In this document: positions 6,480 through 25,336 of the stretch, one piece after another | Numbering within the stretch: the stretch's first letter is position 1 | How the letters are laid out: the number at the start of each line of letters is the position of its first letter | Origin: a virus | Strand: one strand, 5' to 3' | Virus record (IMG/VR): IMGVR_UViG_3300029268_002504 | Location: 1-27,071 of that record | Length of the DNA stretch: 27,071 nucleotides | Program-made: the position numbers and the translations under genes | The notes under the pieces: model-generated | Told to the model about the DNA's origin: nothing | Database searches by the model: none | Seen by the model: the letters and a program-made list of their open reading frames with translations, nothing else

Positions 6480-7169
6480 TTATTCTCCCTCAGATACATT
6501 GATCCCTTTTAGTTCAGCTTCCATAATTGAGTGAAAACACTCCATCTCCTGATTAAACCCGAGATCTCTTGGTATTCCGATAGGAGTATAATTGTATAAT
6601 TCAGGATGCAATTCATTTTCGTAAGCTCTGAAAGATTTCATAATTTGATGAGCTAAATATTCAGCAAGTTTATCCCCTTCATATTTTATTGAATCAATTG
6701 TGAAAGTTTGATTTTCTTTTGTCCAGATATCTATTTGAAAATGCATAACTGATTCTACATCAGAATTATATTGTCCCAATCTTTCTCCGGATCCGCCAAC
6801 TACTAAAAGATTTATTCTTGGAAAAGCAGTTCTTGAAAGAGTTTTCTTTGCTTTGTCAGGATATATCCAATTTGTAGTTCCTTGTTTGTAAGTTATGGAG
6901 ACATTGTCAGTTCCGCTTGATGTTGCAGAATAAAAAATAACTTTTTGATTTTGAAAATCTATGTAATAATCTTTCCATTTTGTTTTTTCAACTGAATCAA
7001 CTTGTACGGATGTAATGCCTGACATTGTTCCAGAAGTAGGTGTTAAACTGAACTCAGTGCCGCCTCCATCAAAAGTTTCATTATTAGTATTTTCAGCCCT
7101 CTCTCTAGGATCAATCAATTTAACTCTCAGAAAATCTACTAAAACATTTTTTGGACTTATAAATACCAT
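6480..7169 (-). CDS. Tail terminator / tail completion protein with an inserted domain
   Basis: The core looks like a siphovirus tail completion protein: a helical start (SPKNVLVDFLRVKLID), then FPRINLLVVGGSGERLGQYN, MHFQIDIWTKEN and a helix KYEGDKLAEYLAHQIMKSF. The usual length is about 120-150 residues. Here 229 residues are explained by a beta-rich insertion (about 33-110, EFSLTPTSGTMSGITSVQVD through IDFQNQKVIFYSA). It would cap the tail tube and bind the neck. AAGAGGAAA precedes the ATG. The gene follows the third repeated element, so it may begin a tail transcript. Confidence 0.72.
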   Translation of the reverse strand: MVFISPKNVLVDFLRVKLIDPRERAENTNNETFDGGGTEFSLTPTSGTMSGITSVQVDSVEKTKWKDYYIDFQNQKVIFYSATSSGTDNVSITYKQGTTNWIYPDKAKKTLSRTAFPRINLLVVGGSGERLGQYNSDVESVMHFQIDIWTKENQTFTIDSIKYEGDKLAEYLAHQIMKSFRAYENELHPELYNYTPIGIPRDLGFNQEMECFHSIMEAELKGINVSEGE

Positions 7170-7230: not shown

Positions 7231-7264
7231 TATTTAAGAATACTTGCTCAAATGATGGATTATT
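7231..7264 (-). promoter_or_regulatory. Repeated intergenic element, copy 3 (candidate internal promoter)
   Basis: One base in 34 differs from the copy at 19149-19182. The TAA stop of the gp10-like gene (7260-7262) falls at the same place within the element as the portal stop does in that copy. On the minus strand it reads GCAAGTATTCTTAAATA at the core, with the TATA-like CTTAAATA about 65 bases before the tail terminator ATG. A promoter here would drive the tail genes separately from the head genes. Confidence 0.55.
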
Positions 7265-7685
7265 TTAATGCCTTCTCCCAGTATCTTTTTATCCAGACAT
7301 TTTTTACCTGATCTAATGCAGGCCTGAAAAATGGATGCGCCTCTGTTCCCCTCATTGCTATCTTCTTAGCAACAGGGTATGCTAAGTTTGGATCTTTCAA
7401 AACCCTTCTAGCCCAGGATTTAAGATGCTCTGCACTTACTACATGAGGACTTGTGCCAAATTCCACATGGATTCCATAATCAACACCATCAGACAACACA
7501 TATTTTTTGTATCCAGGAGTAGATGGACTGAAAATTATGCTACTCCTTAATCTTCCAGTATCAACAGGACAGTATATATTCGCGAGCTCATGCATCTTAA
7601 GAATACAATTAAACAAAACTTCCTTTGCTTTTTCTTCTGTTTTGTCTTTGTCTACTTTCCAGTCTACTTTAAATTTGAGTTTCAT
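7260..7685 (-). CDS. HK97 gp10-like neck/tail protein
   Basis: The 141-residue protein carries the signature of the HK97 gp10-like family: CPVDTGRLRSSI near the middle, YGIHVEFGTSPHVV, then LKSWAR, and AHPFFRPALDQV near the C-terminus. Members join the neck to the tail in siphoviruses. The frame is open to a TTG at 7703, but I use the ATG at 7685, one base after the upstream stop (TAAGATG), the pattern of many neighbours. The stop codon lies within the third copy of the repeated intergenic element. Confidence 0.9.
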   Translation of the reverse strand: MKLKFKVDWKVDKDKTEEKAKEVLFNCILKMHELANIYCPVDTGRLRSSIIFSPSTPGYKKYVLSDGVDYGIHVEFGTSPHVVSAEHLKSWARRVLKDPNLAYPVAKKIAMRGTEAHPFFRPALDQVKNVWIKRYWEKALK

Positions 7686-7686
7686 C

Positions 7687-9339
7687 TTATTGGTTGAGAT
7701 CAATTTTATTTATTATTCCTGTCCTGAACACTTCTCCACCTTCAGCTTGCTTGCTGGCCAGGATCTTTTCTAATCTCCAATAAACATTGTCATCATCTTT
7801 TATAATGTCACCTACTTCAGGAGTAACAATTCCATTCCCGGTGATTGAGTCAGGATATTCATGAAAGAAGTAAATCTTTGCACTTCCAGGAATTGCCAAC
7901 CCCATATCTCTAATTTGACGATCCTTTTTTGTTATGTCTTCAATCATCACATATATGCTGTATTCTTCCTCTGAAACCCCTACAACTCCCCCAATGCCGT
8001 CGATAACCTCTGACTCTCTGATAAGTGTTGCCTGGATCCCCTGTATTGTAAGAAGGGTTTGTACATCGCTTCTTCTAGCTCTTAACCCCTTCAGAACTGA
8101 TGACCTTTTCATTAAATCTAAGAAACTCAAGTTCTCAATCAAAGTCTTATAAAACTTTAATTCTTGATCACCATCACTCAAATAGATTGTCTCTGTAAAT
8201 GTCCTTAGAATTCCCTTGAAGTAGTCATAGATATCCTCAAGTTCTATACTCTCTATTTTTCTAATTTTTATTATTCTTTCAAAGAGTTCATTAATATTAA
8301 TTGATTCTGAAAATTCTTTAATTGGTTTCCTAGAATTACTATCTGCCAAATTAAAAGATTCTGTTAGCAATCTAATAATTTCCTTTGTGTCTCCATCAGA
8401 TAAATAAACAGACTCTAATAATGACTTAAAAATATCTCTTAAAAATTCATCAGAAAGACTTAAGCTTTCACTAAACTCTTTATAAAAAATTCTCCCAAAC
8501 AGATCTGATAAACTTAAGCTTTCATTTAAATCTCTCTGGAGTTTTAATTTTCTATTTTCAGATAATCCAAGACTTTCACTTAATAATCTTGAAATATTTT
8601 TTAAATCTCCATCGGATAAATTCATCTGCTCTGCAAGATCGATTATAGTTTTTCTTAAAATTAGACCTGACAACGAAATTGACTCTGTTTTTCTTATTTT
8701 TGTTTTAAGTGATTTGGCATCTGAAATATTTAAACTACCCGTCAATAGTTTATGGGCAGTTAAGATTTTAATAAAATTATCTCCTGTATTGATTGATTCA
8801 TTCAATATCTTTGTCATTTGTTTGATATCTCCATCAGTCAATGATATTGATTCTATCTTTATTATGGCACTTGAAAATATTTTATAATCATTTAAACTCA
8901 TGCTCTCTGTAAATGTGATGAATCTCTTTTTTCTCAAAATATCAGTCAGAGCAATGCTTTCTATTTTTCTTGTCTTTGTCTTTTTTAGAATAATTCCTGT
9001 TAAGTTTAGATTTTCATCTAATATTTTTCCAGCTGTAAATATTTTAATAACTGTGTCTGAAAGTGAAAGATTGCCTGTAAATGTCTTTGGGAATTTGAAA
9101 TTTAGAGAGTCGTTAATGTCTATAACTTCATTTAGTTTTCTTATAATCTCCTTGAGGAAAGAATCTGTTAATGTTATTGTTTCTGATCTTCTTTTTTTAG
9201 ATTTTTTTAATAAAATATTACCTAAAGTCAAAGATTCTGTTCCTCTTTTCTTTGCTTTTTTAGGAATATTCCCCGATAGATTAATTGTCTCTGTTAAAAG
9301 TTTTACAAATTTTGCAGAAGGTGCGAATGATGTAGGCAT
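7687..9339 (-). CDS. Repeat protein fused to a second head-closure (stopper) domain
   Basis: The 550-residue product has a short lead (MPTSFAPSAKFVKLL), 22 tandem repeats of 18-20 residues (about 16-418) and a C-terminal domain (about 419-550) that is a paralogue of the stopper at 13877-14281. The C-terminal domain conserves DVQ, YSIYVMIEDITKKDRQIRDM, YPDSITGNG, VGDI, WR and FRTGIINKIDL. The repeats read roughly [T/S]-E-S-L-S-L-S-D, four variable residues, then a short helix with K and R. The fusion probably places an elongated arm on the neck. The gene starts one base after the surface-protein stop (TAAAATG) and ends one base before the gp10-like gene. The stopper domain is well supported; the arm's role is inference. 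Confidence 0.85.
   Translation of the reverse strand: MPTSFAPSAKFVKLLTETINLSGNIPKKAKKRGTESLTLGNILLKKSKKRRSETITLTDSFLKEIIRKLNEVIDINDSLNFKFPKTFTGNLSLSDTVIKIFTAGKILDENLNLTGIILKKTKTRKIESIALTDILRKKRFITFTESMSLNDYKIFSSAIIKIESISLTDGDIKQMTKILNESINTGDNFIKILTAHKLLTGSLNISDAKSLKTKIRKTESISLSGLILRKTIIDLAEQMNLSDGDLKNISRLLSESLGLSENRKLKLQRDLNESLSLSDLFGRIFYKEFSESLSLSDEFLRDIFKSLLESVYLSDGDTKEIIRLLTESFNLADSNSRKPIKEFSESININELFERIIKIRKIESIELEDIYDYFKGILRTFTETIYLSDGDQELKFYKTLIENLSFLDLMKRSSVLKGLRARRSDVQTLLTIQGIQATLIRESEVIDGIGGVVGVSEEEYSIYVMIEDITKKDRQIRDMGLAIPGSAKIYFFHEYPDSITGNGIVTPEVGDIIKDDDNVYWRLEKILASKQAEGGEVFRTGIINKIDLNQ
8086..9294 (-). repeat. Region encoding 22 tandem 18-residue repeats
   Basis: The protein repeats start at TETINLSGN and run to IENLSFLDL, with unit lengths of 18, 18, 18, 18, 20, 18 and so on. 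The consensus is T-E-S-L-S-L-S-D followed by about ten residues ending K/R-x-L. Units 9, 13, 17 and 21 share an LSDGD or LTDGD variant, and units 5-6 and 10-11 share a TAGKIL/TAHKLL pattern, so a higher-order period of four to five units is visible. At DNA level the units have diverged, so this is not a recent slippage product. Confidence 0.85.
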
Positions 9340-9340
9340 T

Positions 9341-12300
9341 TTAGATTATATCAAAATCAATATTTACTCCTGGATTTGCGTGAACATAAGAACAGTTTGC
9401 ATACATCCAAATCATTTGTGTTTGAGTGGGATTTAAACTAATAAGATTTTGAAGAGAGGCATTTAGTTTTATTTGTGTTTGTGATGAATTTGCAGCATAT
9501 AGTGTCCATCCGGTATTAAGAGCTCCAGTGTATTTTATTCTTGCTGTTCCTGTAGATCCTCCAATGTTTGTCAAATTAATTGTTCCAACTGTTGGAGTTT
9601 GTCCTAGTGGTTGAGCAGTTGCGTTCTCAAAATCAGGACTGCATATTCCGAACTGAAATTGTGGAAGATTCAAGACTCCTGAAACATTTGGCACTGTTGC
9701 TGTCCATAGCTGTAAGAAAACATTTGTGTTTAATGTAAAAGAGGTTATATTTGTAACATAGCCTGTTTTTGTTGCCTGGACTGTAAAAGGATTTTTATTG
9801 TTTGTAACTCCACTTCTGTTTGTATAAGAAATTACTGGGAATAACAATTGATATCCATTAGCGTCTGTTGTTCCCGATACAATCTGACTGTTGGTATCAT
9901 TTAAAGTCCATGAGACAGAAGATATTCCTTGCAGAGTATTTGAATCATTAATCTGAAATCCATAATACCATTTTCTTGTCAGATTCCCGCCGTTTACAGT
10001 TTCTTCCCCATAAGTTGTATTAATAAAAATATAATCTGTTCCGGATTCAAGGTTTACTGATCCCGAATTAAAGTTCGAGTTTATTATTGTAGCATTTTTA
10101 ACATTATCTCCTTCAGCAAAATGCAAGATTGCTAAATTATCATTTGACCACATATTTCTTACAATAGAGTCATTTGATTCATAGAACGATACAGCTCCAA
10201 AAGAGCCCCCAGTTCCAACATCATAAGTTATATTTTCCCAGAGTACATTTGAGCTCAGATATTCTATAAGAACAAATTGATCTGGATTTGTAGCATAAGA
10301 ATTGATAATCTTATGATTTTTTCCTTCTATGTCAAATAATACTGCTAAATTATCACCCCCATCAACATTTGCATTCTGAATTGTTACATTTTGTACTGTA
10401 AATCCTGCACCATACGAATCAACCCAAATTCCGACGGCATTTCCACTAAGTTCTGTATCATAAGTAGTTACTGTTACATTTTTAATAAATGCATTGTGAT
10501 TTTGTATTCTTATTCCTCCGATAATATCAAAAGGTTCTCCTGACCCTAAAAGTGAAAAATTGATAACATGACCCTGCCCATTTAAAGTCACATTATTTGC
10601 AGTTATAATAATACAATCCCCTTCTAAATCTTGGATGTTATTTTGAATAAGATAAACTTTATTGGCTGTGTTGAGTTCCATGCAGGTAGTCACATTCGGA
10701 TTAAAAGGAGGAAGAGGCGAATATTGATTAATTTCTACATCTGCACTCCATCCTTCTTCAGTCAAGGTCTCCAGATTTTGAGTATATGTTAATTGCCCGC
10801 TTGTTGAATTCCATACTAATGCGTCGGCATCACTTTCTCCGAGCACTGATGCAGCAACCATTCCATTTCCAGTTCTATCCCAATCTGCAAAATTAGTTTC
10901 TATATTTTTAGCAGTATACTGCACGATATTTGCAGAATTATATGAATCATTAATGTAATGGCCATTTCCAGAAATTGAGAAAAAATAAATAAATCTTCCT
11001 GTGTTTGGCATTGCGACAGCCGCAGCAAAAGGGGGTTCATTTGCGAATGAGTTGTCAGTTATCTCAGTGTAATTAGCAAGCCCTAATGTGCTATTAATCT
11101 CAAATATCCATAAATCATTATCATCATCGTATGCCCATCCTCTAATTTTATTTTCCCAATTGCTTGAAGTTAATTCAATAAACTGTACATCCGGAGTTGA
11201 AGCCCCATCTTGAATAACTGGCGATCCAGCCCAACCGCCAGAAGTGCTAAATGTTCTCGAGATTAATCTATATCCTTCTTCTCCCCAATAAGCAACTCCT
11301 GTAGAACCATCTTCTAACCAGGCAAAATCAAAAGTCCTTTCAGCAGACGTTGACGTGGGATCTCCTGTAGAACCATCTTCTAAGTCAGAAGTTAAGATTG
11401 TTTGACTTCCAAAAGAATTTCCATTCCAATAATAAGCGTATAACACATCAGCACTTTCTTCAGCAAGCATCATAATTTCATTTGTTCCGGGTCTTGTTCT
11501 TAATACAATATTTTCAACCTGATTTCCAAGATCATCCGAAAGCTGATTGACTCCACTCCAAGAAGTTCCATCATAAACATCATACCAAACCCAGTCATCA
11601 TTAGCGATTCCTGCTCTTGACCAAGCAACTAATAAATTTCCACTTTGTTCCATATATGCTAAATCTGCGAATCCTCTATCAGAGTCATAATAATCATCGT
11701 CTAATTCTATATGATCAGACCATCCTACTCCATTCCAAAACATCACATGTAAATCATTTGCGGCATCTTGTATCAACATTGCCTTTTCTTGTTCAAACGG
11801 ATGTTGTAATAACTTAACCCATGCAGTGTCGTCTCCGATATCTAAAGCTGTCCCTTCATTACTCCATGATCCAGCATAAGTTCCATTTCTATAAATCGGA
11901 GTATTTGATGAGCTGTCTCCATAAACTAAAAGAATTGGCGAATTTCCATAAAGTTCTGGATCAAGTTCTTCATTAAATGCTCTCACCCCCCATTTGACAT
12001 TGTCTTGTGCTTTCTTTCCAACTACAAACCAGAAGTTATAAGTTTGGCCTACTTTAAATGTGAAATTGCTTGTGTTATAAACAGGTTCCCAGTCTCCAGA
12101 ATTATTAAAATAAACTCCCTTTCTTGCCTTTCCTTGCAAATAAACTTCAAAACTAATTCCATCTTTAGGAGCATGAATATCAAAGTAAGTTTCACAATAT
12201 TCTCCACAGGCTTGATTTGCATCTCCGATAACTGTTATATTTTCAGCAAAAAAATAAACTCGTACTCTTTTATTTAAGTTAATTTCAAATTTATCTGAAT

Positions 12301-13036
12301 CTCTAAATATTTCTTTTCTTGTTCCATTTTTTAATGCATCACTTTCTCTGAATCCTTCCTGCAAAATTAATTTTTCAGGCAGATTAAATCCGTCTCTATT
12401 CGAGATAATTAATTTATCATTTTTTATATGTGCGTCAATTTCATCAGGTTCTTTAATAACCCTAAAAGAATGATATGTTGGAATAATCACTCCTCCACCA
12501 TCAAGTGGTTTTTCTCCAAGCCATATAGGATCTAGCTCTCCCTTGGATGAATCAAAAGTCCATTTTATATTTTCATCTGGAAAACGTTTTATTCCTACTA
12601 ATCTAAACTTGATAGTTGAATAGGCTGGAAACCTGAATACATATTCTGCATCTTGTCTTGGCTTAGTTGCATTTGTAAAATCCACACATCTCCATCCATT
12701 AAATCCAGTTGTTTGATTGTTCTTTAATTGGCATGCACATTTGCCCTCGGCACTACATCTTTCATCAACTACGAATAAAGCATAATCTTCTATCTCCGGA
12801 CTAAACTCTAATTTTATATGATCCTTTGAATAAATGTCAACATTAAAAGAACTAGGATTTTTGACTTTAAATTCAGATATGCAAGGATTTTTATATGTTC
12901 CCTCGCAAATAATATTTCCTGTCAGATCTGTGATTTGAAAATTATAGGTTAAACTAAATAAAATAAAAAGTCCTATGACTGTTGTTGTACCTGCTGCTAT
13001 TCCACCACCTATTTTCAACCATCTTCGATTTGCCAT
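9341..13036 (-). CDS. Large membrane-anchored surface protein with beta-propeller and beta-helix
   Basis: The 1231-residue protein has one N-terminal hydrophobic helix (about 8-30, IGGGIAAGTTTVIGLFILFS) and then a long outer part with many N-x-S/T sequons. Two related N-terminal modules each end in a KWxxxxxxxELDP segment (158-170 and 348-360). Residues about 415-770 contain repeated YWNG/W-type turns (FWNGVGWS, YDGTSWSG, YWNGNSFG), suggesting a beta-propeller. Residues about 795-1010 form a right-handed parallel beta-helix (NNVTLNGQGHVI, GGIRIQNHNAFIKNVTV). An Ig-like and a final beta domain follow. Such proteins are typical of archaeal cell surfaces, especially DPANN. Encoded inside a head-neck operon, it is either a virion adhesin or a cargo protein displayed on the host. 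No ribosome-binding site is seen. Confidence 0.85.
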   Translation of the reverse strand: MANRRWLKIGGGIAAGTTTVIGLFILFSLTYNFQITDLTGNIICEGTYKNPCISEFKVKNPSSFNVDIYSKDHIKLEFSPEIEDYALFVVDERCSAEGKCACQLKNNQTTGFNGWRCVDFTNATKPRQDAEYVFRFPAYSTIKFRLVGIKRFPDENIKWTFDSSKGELDPIWLGEKPLDGGGVIIPTYHSFRVIKEPDEIDAHIKNDKLIISNRDGFNLPEKLILQEGFRESDALKNGTRKEIFRDSDKFEINLNKRVRVYFFAENITVIGDANQACGEYCETYFDIHAPKDGISFEVYLQGKARKGVYFNNSGDWEPVYNTSNFTFKVGQTYNFWFVVGKKAQDNVKWGVRAFNEELDPELYGNSPILLVYGDSSSNTPIYRNGTYAGSWSNEGTALDIGDDTAWVKLLQHPFEQEKAMLIQDAANDLHVMFWNGVGWSDHIELDDDYYDSDRGFADLAYMEQSGNLLVAWSRAGIANDDWVWYDVYDGTSWSGVNQLSDDLGNQVENIVLRTRPGTNEIMMLAEESADVLYAYYWNGNSFGSQTILTSDLEDGSTGDPTSTSAERTFDFAWLEDGSTGVAYWGEEGYRLISRTFSTSGGWAGSPVIQDGASTPDVQFIELTSSNWENKIRGWAYDDDNDLWIFEINSTLGLANYTEITDNSFANEPPFAAAVAMPNTGRFIYFFSISGNGHYINDSYNSANIVQYTAKNIETNFADWDRTGNGMVAASVLGESDADALVWNSTSGQLTYTQNLETLTEEGWSADVEINQYSPLPPFNPNVTTCMELNTANKVYLIQNNIQDLEGDCIIITANNVTLNGQGHVINFSLLGSGEPFDIIGGIRIQNHNAFIKNVTVTTYDTELSGNAVGIWVDSYGAGFTVQNVTIQNANVDGGDNLAVLFDIEGKNHKIINSYATNPDQFVLIEYLSSNVLWENITYDVGTGGSFGAVSFYESNDSIVRNMWSNDNLAILHFAEGDNVKNATIINSNFNSGSVNLESGTDYIFINTTYGEETVNGGNLTRKWYYGFQINDSNTLQGISSVSWTLNDTNSQIVSGTTDANGYQLLFPVISYTNRSGVTNNKNPFTVQATKTGYVTNITSFTLNTNVFLQLWTATVPNVSGVLNLPQFQFGICSPDFENATAQPLGQTPTVGTINLTNIGGSTGTARIKYTGALNTGWTLYAANSSQTQIKLNASLQNLISLNPTQTQMIWMYANCSYVHANPGVNIDFDII

Positions 13037-13050
13037 TTTGAATTACCATT

Positions 13051-13206
13051 TTATTTAGCCTTCTTTGAATCCAACTCAATTGCTTTTTTATCCAGTTCAA
13101 CTTTCCCAGTCTGATCATCCCTGAATATTTTTCTTTCATCAATGACCTGACCTTCTTTGTTTTTTGCAACTAAGTGAAGTTCTCCACTTCTTTCAGCCTT
13201 TGCCAT
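13051..13206 (-). CDS. Small protein of 51 residues
   Basis: A short reading frame fills the gap between the 156-residue structural gene and the large surface protein. The product starts MAKAERSGELHLVAKNKEG and ends AIELDSKKAK: two strand-like segments (ELHLVAKNKEGQVIDERKI) followed by a charged helix. The ATG is one base after the upstream stop (TAAAATG), the same junction used by many neighbours, and AGGT lies about ten bases before. A longer frame in another phase (12954-13169) crosses into the next gene and is less likely. The strand-turn-strand with a central acidic/Gly turn resembles the end of the 61-residue protein upstream. Function unknown. Confidence 0.55.
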   Translation of the reverse strand: MAKAERSGELHLVAKNKEGQVIDERKIFRDDQTGKVELDKKAIELDSKKAK

Positions 13207-13207
13207 T

Positions 13208-13678
13208 TTAACTTACCTGTATTTTCCAAGTAACTTCAAGGGAATCGCCATTTGCTACATTGATAGCTGAAAATACTTGCCTGCATAACAGATCGCCAGT
13301 TGAAGCGGCATTTAAAACTCCGGATTCAGTAATAGCAAAACTGCTTGTAAAGTTGTAGGTTACTACAAATTGAGCAGTATCATTTGTTACAGATGTAGTG
13401 ACTCTTGTTCCGGTTGCGCCCGCTCTCTGTCCACCACCGCTCGCTATTTCTGTTTGCAGTTGTGTATCTGTTGCTGCAGCTGCAGTCGTTCCAGTTCCAA
13501 TAGCAATATAATCAAACTCATTGCCTGCGACATCTGCCACGATGGTTGCTGCAACTGCTGCTTTTCCGGCATTGGTTATTACATTTGGCATAGTAAATTC
13601 TCTTAACAGCTTTCCAGCTTGGTCTCTGTGCCTCATAGTAAACCAGCCCTTCAATTTCAATTGTTGCTTTTTTTCCAT
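13208..13678 (-). CDS. Phage structural protein of the ITNAGKAAVA...IAIGTGTT type
   Basis: The 156-residue protein follows a layout seen repeatedly in tailed phages: VITNAGKAAVAATIVADVAG, then FDYIAIGTGTTAAAATDTQL, a variable segment, SVTNDTAQFVVTYNFTS, a conserved ITESGVLNAASTGDLLCRQV and a closing NGDSLEVTWKIQV. It is all-beta and probably part of a virion appendage or capsid surface, although the exact role in such phages is not settled to my knowledge. CAGGAGGTAAA then ATG is a strong ribosome-binding site, suggesting high expression. It opens the accessory block between the two stopper copies. Confidence 0.7.
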   Translation of the reverse strand: MEKKQQLKLKGWFTMRHRDQAGKLLREFTMPNVITNAGKAAVAATIVADVAGNEFDYIAIGTGTTAAAATDTQLQTEIASGGGQRAGATGTRVTTSVTNDTAQFVVTYNFTSSFAITESGVLNAASTGDLLCRQVFSAINVANGDSLEVTWKIQVS

Positions 13679-13689
13679 TTTACCTCCTG

Positions 13690-13875
13690 TTAATTATTTA
13701 ATTTTGCCTTGACATTTCCGTTAGAGTCTCTTAAAACCAACTCTACTCTGTCAGACATTGAAACTTGCTCATCTCTATTTTTGTTTTCCTCTATTCTTTC
13801 TAATTCATGCAAATACAAATGTAATATTCTCAATAAATTGATTATTTTTTTGTTGATTGATTCTTCTGTTTCCAT
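13690..13875 (-). CDS. Small hypothetical protein
   Basis: This 61-residue protein has a helical N-terminal half (SINKKIINLLRILHLYLHEL) with a leucine-rich face and a strand-like end (DRVELVLRDSNGNVKAKLN). The closing strand resembles the DxxGxV turn at the start of the next gene's product (MRHRDQAGKLLREF), so a small relationship or shared contact is possible but weak. It begins one base after the stopper stop (TAAAATG) and has no ribosome-binding site, implying coupled translation. Function unknown. Confidence 0.55.
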   Translation of the reverse strand: METEESINKKIINLLRILHLYLHELERIEENKNRDEQVSMSDRVELVLRDSNGNVKAKLNN

Positions 13876-13876
13876 T

Positions 13877-14281
13877 TTAATCCAAATCTATTCGTTTAAT
13901 TATTGCAGTTCTGAAAATTTCATTTGCCTGCGATTTTCTTTCTGCAATTATTTGCTCAACCCTCCAATGTTGATCAGCGGCATCTTCTACAATATCTCCA
14001 ACCTGGACTGCCATCTCTCCATTGCCAGTAATAGAATCCGGATAGAGGTGAAAGAAAAATGCTTTTGAGTTTCCTTCTATTGCAAGACCCATCTCGTGAA
14101 TTAATCTATCATTTTTTGTAATGTCCTGGACTAAAACATAAATATTGTAATTCTCCGTAGAGACTGTCGTAACTCCACCCATGCTGTCTGTTGTTTCAGT
14201 CTGTCTTTTTAGTATAGCTGAAACTCCATGGGTCTGAATAATACTCTGCACATCTGTTCTCATCTGATTATAATCTGTCAT
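13877..14281 (-). CDS. Head-closure (stopper) protein, first copy
   Basis: The 134-residue protein fits the head-tail joining/stopper family in size, position and beta-barrel pattern: an N-terminal helix, then YNIYVLVQDITKNDRLIHEM, YPDSITGNGEMAVQVGDIV and a closing EIFRTAIIKRIDL strand. Such proteins plug the portal channel after packaging and receive the tail. The C-terminal domain of the 550-residue protein at 7687-9339 is a clear paralogue: by hand alignment about 65 of 127 positions are identical, including YPDSITGNG. This shorter copy follows the adaptor and is probably the ancestral stopper. It starts at a TAAAATG junction. Confidence 0.78.
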   Translation of the reverse strand: MTDYNQMRTDVQSIIQTHGVSAILKRQTETTDSMGGVTTVSTENYNIYVLVQDITKNDRLIHEMGLAIEGNSKAFFFHLYPDSITGNGEMAVQVGDIVEDAADQHWRVEQIIAERKSQANEIFRTAIIKRIDLD

Positions 14282-23297: not shown

Positions 23298-24029
23298 TTA
23301 TAATTTGATTGCTTTTTTGCCTGTCAATAGCTCCCATCTGCCTATTGTTCTCTCTACATACTTTGGATCTAAATCCATCATGTAGCAGATTCTATCTGTC
23401 TTTTCACAGGCTATCAGAGTGCTTCCGCTTCCCCCAAATAAATCAAGAACAATATCTCCTGCATCTGAGCTGTTTTGTATAGCAGTCATAATTAAACGAA
23501 CTGGCTTTTGAGTTGGATGCACATATTTCCCTGTTGCTCTGCGCTTAACAAACCATACATCGCTCTGGTTTCTTTCTCCCCTGAACTTCTTTTTATCAAA
23601 ATAATAATACATCATTTGCTCATAGCCTGAATGATAATCTCCCGGCAGAATTGAATATCCATTTTTTACCCAGATGATCATTCTTGCTCTTGTCTTTAGA
23701 TTCTTAGATGCCCATTCATAAATTGGTCCTACCTGCTTAGATCCACAGCAGACATAAACAGCACCTTCACAAATTCCTGTATTTATCAAGTCTAACAAAG
23801 CACTTATTTTAAAATTGATATCTCCTAAGATTCCACCAAGCTCTTTCATTTTCCTTCCGCCCTTTCTTCTTTCTTCTGGAACATAATTGACAGAATAAGG
23901 CGGATCTGTAAAAATCATAGTGCTGACTTTTTTATCCATCAGTCTTTGAACATCAATTAAGTTCAGACTATCTCCGCACATCAATCTATGCTTACCTAAT
24001 AAAAAGATATCACTTTTTTCTATTTGCAT
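23298..24029 (-). CDS. DNA methyltransferase, DPPY type (probable N6-adenine)
   Basis: This 243-residue enzyme has the catalytic motif TDPPY (41-45), then the cofactor loop DLFGGSGST (196-204), ending with LDPKYVERTIGRW, all usual for beta-class DNA methyltransferases. DPPY favours methylation of adenine N6. It lacks the ParB domain of its neighbour and is the minimal size for the fold. The ATG overlaps the end of the upstream methyltransferase by 10 bases, and the upstream gene's last codons supply its ribosome-binding site (GAGGTGATTAA then ATG). The two enzymes are therefore probably made together and may mark two different sites or bases. The terminase genes follow 18 bases later. Confidence 0.92.
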   Translation of the reverse strand: MQIEKSDIFLLGKHRLMCGDSLNLIDVQRLMDKKVSTMIFTDPPYSVNYVPEERRKGGRKMKELGGILGDINFKISALLDLINTGICEGAVYVCCGSKQVGPIYEWASKNLKTRARMIIWVKNGYSILPGDYHSGYEQMMYYYFDKKKFRGERNQSDVWFVKRRATGKYVHPTQKPVRLIMTAIQNSSDAGDIVLDLFGGSGSTLIACEKTDRICYMMDLDPKYVERTIGRWELLTGKKAIKL

Positions 24030-25336
24030 TTAATCACCTCAAACTTTGCAGTTGGTTTGTAAATCAGATATCTTTCTATGACTACACTTACATAATTTGG
24101 ATCGAGTTCGATTCCATATCCTTTTCTGTTCAATTGATCTGCTGCAATAATTGATGTCCCACTTCCAACGAATGGATCAAGTATCAACTCTTTTTCAAAA
24201 GTAAAGAACCTTATACAATTAAATGGCAATTGTACTGGAAAAGGTGCAGGATGATTTCCACCGAGAGCTGTTTCAGTCATCATTTCCCAAACATTTCCAG
24301 AATATTTTCCCAATAAGATATCAGGTATTTGCTCTCTCTTTTCCCTTTGACCCTCGCCAAATTTGTAAGTTATTAAAGAGTCATAGACTTGCGGATTTTC
24401 GTCATCTGAATAAAGTTGAATTATTTCTGTCTGCACTTTTGGAATGTAATATCTTGGAAAAGGATTTCTCCCAGTTATTGTTCCACGAGCACTTCCCAGG
24501 GGTTTACTCCAATAGATATTTCTGAAAAAGACATAACCAATCCCCTCAAGAATTTCATCGTATTTTGCAGGCATATTTATAGGCCCCCATTCTCTTCCGA
24601 TGTTGATACATAGAAATCTCCCACGATTCATAAATGTCTTACAGTTTTGGAATACACTTTTAATCATCTTTATGTAATCAGTGTAATCTTTGTTATCTCG
24701 ATACTTTCCATATTTGATATCCAGATTGTAAGGAGGACTTGTAACTAACAAGTCTACTTTATTTTCTCCCAATAGCTTTCTTAAAACATTGGGATCTGTT
24801 GCATCTCCGCAAATTATTTTATGCTGATCATCTAATACAACGATATCTCCTTCTTCTATTCCATATCTGTTTGTTAGATCGAAATCATCCTCTGCAGCTG
24901 TTGCGTATATTTGCTCTTTCTCTTTTTCTCTCAATCCTAAAAGATAATTTATTTCTGAATTATCAAATCCTGTAAGATTTAAGATATCTTCATTTTCTTC
25001 TTCGATCAAGCTTAAGAGATCAATAAGTTTGTCTTCTTCAAATCTTCCGCCAATTTTATTCATAGCAAGATTGAGAGCTCGCTCTTTTGAAAGATCTAAA
25101 TCAACAAGCATGCAAGGAACTTCTTTCATTCCTAGTTTCTTTGCAACCTGTAATCTCTGATGGCCACTAATTACAACATTCTCTCTTGCAGGATGAATAT
25201 TAACGACAATTGGCTGTACTAAACCAAACTCTTTGATAGAGTTCTCTAACTTTTTGAATTCATCCTTTGTGATCTGTCTCGGATTGTATTCTGAATCTTT
25301 CAAAAGCTCAACGCTTATCATTTTTATATTTTCCAT
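24020..25336 (-). CDS. ParB-domain DNA methyltransferase, beta-class (TSPPY type)
   Basis: Residues 8-100 form a ParB/Sulfiredoxin-like domain, seen in the NPRQITKDEF start, the GLVQPIVV strand and the ISGHQRLQVAKKLG signature. Residues about 165-438 form an S-adenosylmethionine-dependent methyltransferase. The catalytic motif TSPPY (199-203) comes before the cofactor-binding motif DPFVGSGT (387-394), the order of beta-class enzymes. Serine in TSPPY is typical of N4-cytosine methylation, though the target base cannot be read with certainty. ParB-methyltransferase fusions are common in phages and mobile elements, where they modify virus DNA against host restriction. The gene begins one base inside the previous stop and ends 10 bases inside the next methyltransferase gene. 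No restriction endonuclease lies beside it, so I infer an orphan, protective modification enzyme. Confidence 0.92.
   Translation of the reverse strand: MENIKMISVELLKDSEYNPRQITKDEFKKLENSIKEFGLVQPIVVNIHPARENVVISGHQRLQVAKKLGMKEVPCMLVDLDLSKERALNLAMNKIGGRFEEDKLIDLLSLIEEENEDILNLTGFDNSEINYLLGLREKEKEQIYATAAEDDFDLTNRYGIEEGDIVVLDDQHKIICGDATDPNVLRKLLGENKVDLLVTSPPYNLDIKYGKYRDNKDYTDYIKMIKSVFQNCKTFMNRGRFLCINIGREWGPINMPAKYDEILEGIGYVFFRNIYWSKPLGSARGTITGRNPFPRYYIPKVQTEIIQLYSDDENPQVYDSLITYKFGEGQREKREQIPDILLGKYSGNVWEMMTETALGGNHPAPFPVQLPFNCIRFFTFEKELILDPFVGSGTSIIAADQLNRKGYGIELDPNYVSVVIERYLIYKPTAKFEVIKCK

Follow-up and report, generated by a model that had tools for sequence, protein, structure and literature searches.

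Why should a tailed virus encode the stopper of its neck twice, once as a free protein and once at the end of a repetitive arm, and what might the armed copy do there? The question is raised by 27,071 bases of DNA from an uncultured tailed virus in an IMG/VR record (hereafter the window, meaning this whole stretch of DNA), on whose minus strand the genes for head, neck and tail follow one another in order. A preliminary description of the sequence had placed two copies of a head-closure protein around a 61-aa protein, an appendage-type protein, a 51-aa protein, a 1231-aa surface protein and a 22-unit repeat arm, with the usual gene order resuming at gp10-like after the second copy. Its coordinates and gene order for positions 7687-14281 are correct, the proteins are present as described, and the adaptor (phrog_442) and gp10-like (phrog_5) genes border the block (Table 1). 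Searches of annotated phages at the DNA and protein level found nothing matching the window, and scans of bacterial and archaeal genomes with its stopper and its tail-tube protein found no host.

Table 1. Neck genes and features of the window with the evidence for each assignment
Feature	Coordinates	Strand	Evidence or remarks
Head-tail adaptor, 275 aa	14283..15110	-	phrog_442 E 1.2e-11; 36 related loci
Free stopper (head closure), 134 aa	13877..14281	-	phrog_161 E 6e-4; 40/41 family-conserved residues
61-aa protein, accompanies appendage protein in arm-bearing viruses	13690..13875	-	homologues after adaptor: L008, L013, L019, L038, L042
156-aa appendage protein (APP)	13208..13678	-	phrog_5417 E 1.7e-25; tail-fibre phrog_4176 E 8e-13
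51-aa protein	13051..13206	-	no assigned function; no homologue among related loci
1231-aa surface protein, N-terminal membrane segment aa 9-27	9341..13036	-	ends conserved, middle replaceable
550-aa arm-stopper fusion	7687..9339	-	stopper alignment, repeat count, predicted fold
Arm, aa 17-422, 22 tandem units of ~18 aa	8074..9291	-	phrog_12240 E 1.4e-10
Fused stopper domain, aa 423-549	7693..8073	-	35/41 family-conserved residues
gp10-like (tail completion/Neck1)	7260..7703	-	phrog_5 E 3.9e-17; 17-nt overlap with arm-stopper gene
Next neck/tail gene, 229 aa, terminator position	6480..7169	-	order conserved across lineage; no strong family match

Two stopper paralogues in one neck locus

Residues 423-549 of the 550-aa protein align without gaps to residues 8-134 of the free stopper with 65/127 identities (145 bits, E 3e-46), exactly the number that had been estimated by hand, and the matched stretch includes the motif YPDSITGNG. 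The duplication is therefore real, but it is not recent, since the two copies are only ca. 68% alike at the DNA level over their best 110 bases. The PHROG 161 profile (head closure Hc1) recognizes the free copy and, weakly, the fused one (0.09), while a sequence profile search of solved structures returned chance matches only. An AlphaFold2 model of the 550-aa protein built from 35 aligned rows reaches a pLDDT of ~90 in the stopper domain and mostly stays below 50 in the arm, and Foldseek matched the fused domain to at least nine stoppers with probabilities of 0.99-1.00, including T4 neck gp14, the T1 stopper, Pam3, SPP1 gp16 and the GTA stopper. The C-terminal domain is thus predicted to adopt the stopper fold, in line with the earlier reading of this protein, and the same holds for the stopper of a relative (L003). 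Both copies are encoded between the adaptor and the tail completion gene, and together these results support a true stopper duplication and a neck-ring protein to which an arm is covalently attached. The arm indeed comprises 22 units, mostly of 18 and in some cases of 19-21 residues, with a consensus like ESLSLSD; it is rich in L, I, S and K and contains neither cysteine nor tryptophan.

In predicted fold, the window's stoppers resemble SPP1 gp16 / Hc1 (PHROG 161) and the T4 gp14, T1 and GTA stoppers, and they share with the SPP1 gp16 / Hc1 family the gene position between adaptor and gp10-like as well as a predicted gating segment between two strands. Unlike in the SPP1 gp16 / Hc1 stoppers, there are two paralogues per genome, one of them on a 422-residue arm. 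Near relatives with a single stopper share 41 conserved positions, of which free copies retain 38-40 and arm copies 33-35. In or just after the predicted gating helix, 4/5 arm copies are changed at K57 and some of them also at I61 and L66, whereas free copies retain the gating segment. At the gate, the contrast between the two copies is less sharp in the window than in other groups, with one change in its free copy (K57N) and a gating segment that differs at Q52 only in its arm copy. This residue pattern fits a division in which the free copy would be the gate and the arm copy the anchor.

The adaptor-to-gp10 interval in related viruses

Scans with the stopper, tail-tube and adaptor proteins yielded about 70 related loci (the fused stopper domain alone as query found none), for which stopper counts and the layout from adaptor to gp10 were established by six-frame profile searches with whole-record checks for 20 contigs. 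N-terminal arm-stopper fusions occur in five groups, i.e., the window, L008/L009, L007/L010, L013/L024 and L019, and every one of them also encodes a second, free stopper. Where the contig covers the complete interval, two stoppers are found in 4/4 arm-bearing viruses and in 0/14 armless ones, an association that would arise once in 3060 if the contigs could be treated as independent. Related viruses are not independent, however, and the five arm groups should not be counted as five separate events, since they may have a common ancestry. The whole-record searches revealed no further stopper copies. That arm and second stopper always co-occur supports the idea of two stopper types in one neck, as the preliminary description had suggested. 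A distant relative (L034:409-1307) encodes its own short tandem stopper pair without an arm.

The preliminary description had further proposed that the duplication opened room for a neck-decoration module of about 6 kb that includes the 1231-aa surface protein, and the gene order of the window contig speaks for it. The relatives tell otherwise. Four single-stopper viruses (L016, L017, L053 and L067) indeed lack an insert, with adaptor, stopper and gp10 in bare succession and 377-394 bases in between, but in 10 of the 14 relatives with one stopper the adaptor and gp10-like genes are already 3-9 kb apart (L003, L011, L018, L032, L035, L041, L058, L062, L065 and L070), so that this interval is an insertion hotspot independent of the duplication. 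Many of these inserts code for proteins whose N-terminus contains a membrane or signal-like segment. In the four other arm groups, the stoppers are adjacent in the order arm-stopper, free stopper, gp10, with the consecutive genes overlapping by a few bases, and in the three groups with contigs that reach the adaptor the block lies upstream of both; the order free stopper, block, arm-stopper, gp10 is found in the window alone, and stoppers that bracket the block are thus peculiar to this contig. Finally, a homologue of the 1231-aa protein (L057, on the same contig as L016; 41% over 1130 aa) is encoded between portal and protease in a virus with a single stopper directly after the adaptor, so that this large protein is not bound to the neck locus. 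For the 1231-aa protein, this is the very arrangement that the preliminary description had named as contradicting its proposal. We therefore consider it very unlikely that the duplication made space for the block.

Could the peculiar order of the window instead result from misassembly of two related viruses? It is seen in one contig only, and the window's free copy stands weakly apart from other free copies, yet gene spacing is tight throughout (1-14 nt or short overlaps) and at least four other groups yielded the combination of two stoppers and an arm in separate assemblies, which makes a contig artefact most improbable.

Across the complete arm intervals, the constant set is small and consists of the two stoppers, armed and free, together with the 61-aa protein and the 156-aa appendage protein. 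The other genes of the block vary. Both small proteins occur in 4/4 of these intervals, and neither was seen in a complete interval that lacks an arm. In armless relatives, the single stopper often has a smaller N-terminal extension in which an 80-residue domain of predicted all-beta structure occurs once or twice, indicating that additions to the stopper N-terminus are a habit of this lineage. This domain of ~80 residues, with a motif like TGADCSGSSGDxNRxLTL, was observed on the stopper N-terminus in L003:9728-10405, L002, L004, L011, L014, L020, L027 and L041, and the same type of domain is joined to a terminator-like protein in L088:2102-2785. Proteins with signal or membrane segments, several of them with fibre-like motifs, occupy the gap between adaptor and stopper in L003:1584-3296, L011, L018, L035, L041, L058, L062 and L065.

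Arm tips and the exchange of arm cassettes

From gp10 onward, the viruses L007 and L008 agree at 98.6% of 2,854 bases, but across the arm-stopper and free stopper genes just upstream their identity drops to 69%, a contrast which argues that the stopper pair was exchanged as one cassette; L009 and L010, independent assemblies from other samples, reproduce both versions. In the stopper trees, L008 pairs with L019 in the arm copy as well as in the free copy, whereas the core-gene tree places it with L007; the two copies therefore move together. In the four groups other than the window, arm copies and free copies form separate clades with identical internal order. A tree that unites the free copy of the window with those of the other groups is neither favored nor rejected (AU p 0.29), so that one shared duplication and two duplications are both compatible with the tree. 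In the pairs tested, dN/dS is 0.10 and 0.13 for arm-stopper domains, 0.05 and 0.10 for free copies and 0.14 for arm repeats, and both stopper copies are under purifying selection.

Some homologous arms carry recognizable domains at or near their N-terminus, namely Laminin_G_3 in L008 (E 2e-18) and L019 (E 1e-16) and Gly_rich_2 in L013 (E 3e-20). Glycine-rich adhesins are known to set host range in haloarchaeal hafunaviruses (PMC8651126). The domain search recognized no tip domain on the window's arm, and Pfam, PHROG and NCBIfam gave no match to a fibritin or NPS family. An arm-stopper that serves as an assembly factor or tail-side component, e.g., a tail-docking chaperone, with an arm that is not a host-binding fibre, would agree with this bare arm and with the role in assembly proposed for the neck whiskers of other phages (PMC10966104, PMC12886913). 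We nevertheless regard such a function as unlikely in view of the lectin and glycine-rich domains on homologous arms and of cassette swapping of a kind usual for host-recognition genes.

The arm repeats also occur well beyond this lineage, as a scan with the 156-aa protein found it adjoining arm-repeat genes in unrelated viruses that include L074, L076, L088, L092, L095, L098, L099, L101 and L102. In L074, L076 and L088, a large surface protein is encoded between the two, with likeness to that of the window mainly at its two ends. Appendage protein, surface protein and arm lie immediately upstream of the neck genes in L074 and L076, where a 304/314-aa protein in adaptor position is followed by the stopper (phrog_161 E 4e-5 in L076). 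These stoppers (L074:18680-19120 and L076:18730-19176) bear a single arm-type unit at their C-terminus in addition to the separate arm gene upstream; the units score 28 and 14 bits, respectively, and 0/5,000 shuffles scored as high. Arm repeats are thus connected to a stopper in a second way. The cassette of L088 follows the tail genes, and a location at the neck is thus not universal. In the large surface proteins of the window (9341-13036), L059, L019, L074, L076 and L088, the first ~175 and the last ~115 residues are kept and the middle is swapped. This membrane-anchored protein is hypervariable and encoded among virion genes.

A putative neck-fibre anchor and its known counterparts

We think that the duplicated stopper has probably given rise to a neck-fibre device in which the free copy serves as channel gate and the arm-stopper holds an adhesin at the neck. 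In phage SPP1, six gp16 stoppers lie beneath twelve gp15 (PMC9701221). The stopper domain of the fusion would dock beneath the adaptor ring, its N-terminal arm would leave the outer face of the neck and reach for cell-surface glycans, and the free stopper would provide the gate. Both termini of the phage 812 stopper touch outer decoration proteins that are probable whisker holders (PMC12886913), suggesting that an N-terminal arm could exit outward, but the stopper N-terminus of TP901-1 also contacts the adaptor (PMC10747895), which makes the exit path uncertain. The two copies would most likely sit together in a single six-fold ring, because all arm-bearing viruses have kept a free stopper and because a plain ring would become crowded with six arms, each several hundred residues long. 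Arm, 156-aa appendage protein and 61-aa protein would then form one host-recognition cassette swapped between viruses, often accompanied by the large surface protein, although that protein is not tied to the stopper. More tentatively, the mixed ring of paralogues may be at once gate and socket for exchangeable adhesin arms, with the cassette of arm, appendage and surface protein hooking on in two ways, possibly by fusion to the stopper N-terminus as in the window and by an arm-type unit on the stopper C-terminus as in L074 and L076.

Instead of mixing in one ring, the two stoppers could build alternative necks, giving two virion types with either plain or fully armed rings. Nothing in the sequence fixes the composition of the ring, and both copies retain the stopper signature under the purifying selection seen in tested pairs. 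Such a dimorphism seems doubtful to us, given that the consecutive, overlapping genes of the four adjacent-pair groups suggest joint expression and that the altered gating segment of 4/5 arm copies might weaken a ring made only of them.

Compared to neck appendages described before, the device that we favor, with arm-stopper as anchor and free stopper as gate, would differ in how the fibre is held, and in the open-access literature we found no fibre fused to a stopper paralogue. Like the neck arm postulated here, the whiskers of T4 fibritin and the neck fibres of A-1(L) project from the neck (PMC10966104), but these are separate fibre proteins that sit non-covalently on neck rings, whereas the window's anchor would be a covalently attached stopper domain. 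The distal carbohydrate module of the A-1(L) fibres did not bind its host (PMC10966104), an observation that speaks against the adhesin reading. The neck passage structure (NPS) of lactococcal TP901-1 and the 936 group binds by way of an N-terminal collar ring of its own, close to the portal-adaptor junction, and has no stopper fusion, and how neck passage proteins attach in TP901-1 is stated to be unknown (PMC10747895). The stopper decoration protein of phage 812, located on the outer stopper surface where it probably attaches whiskers (PMC12886913), is a separate add-on dimer and not a duplicated stopper as in the window. The attachment of neck fibres is unresolved for most siphoviruses, and a stopper-fused fibre would answer this question directly in one lineage. 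If our reading is true, a gate protein has been split into a gating and an anchoring copy, and a hotspot for the exchange of host-recognition functions lies at the neck rather than at the tail tip; it predicts that both paralogues are present in the virion and that arms are seen at the neck.

A protein of one family fills the accessory slot adjoining the arm-stopper gene in L008:2279-3598, L013:3111-4400 and L019:679-2040, and its L008 member matches glycosyltransferase and methyltransferase families; these proteins could be modifiers of the arms. Elsewhere in the window, positions 23298-25336 hold two neighbouring DNA methyltransferase genes, the larger of which has a ParB-like N-terminal domain.
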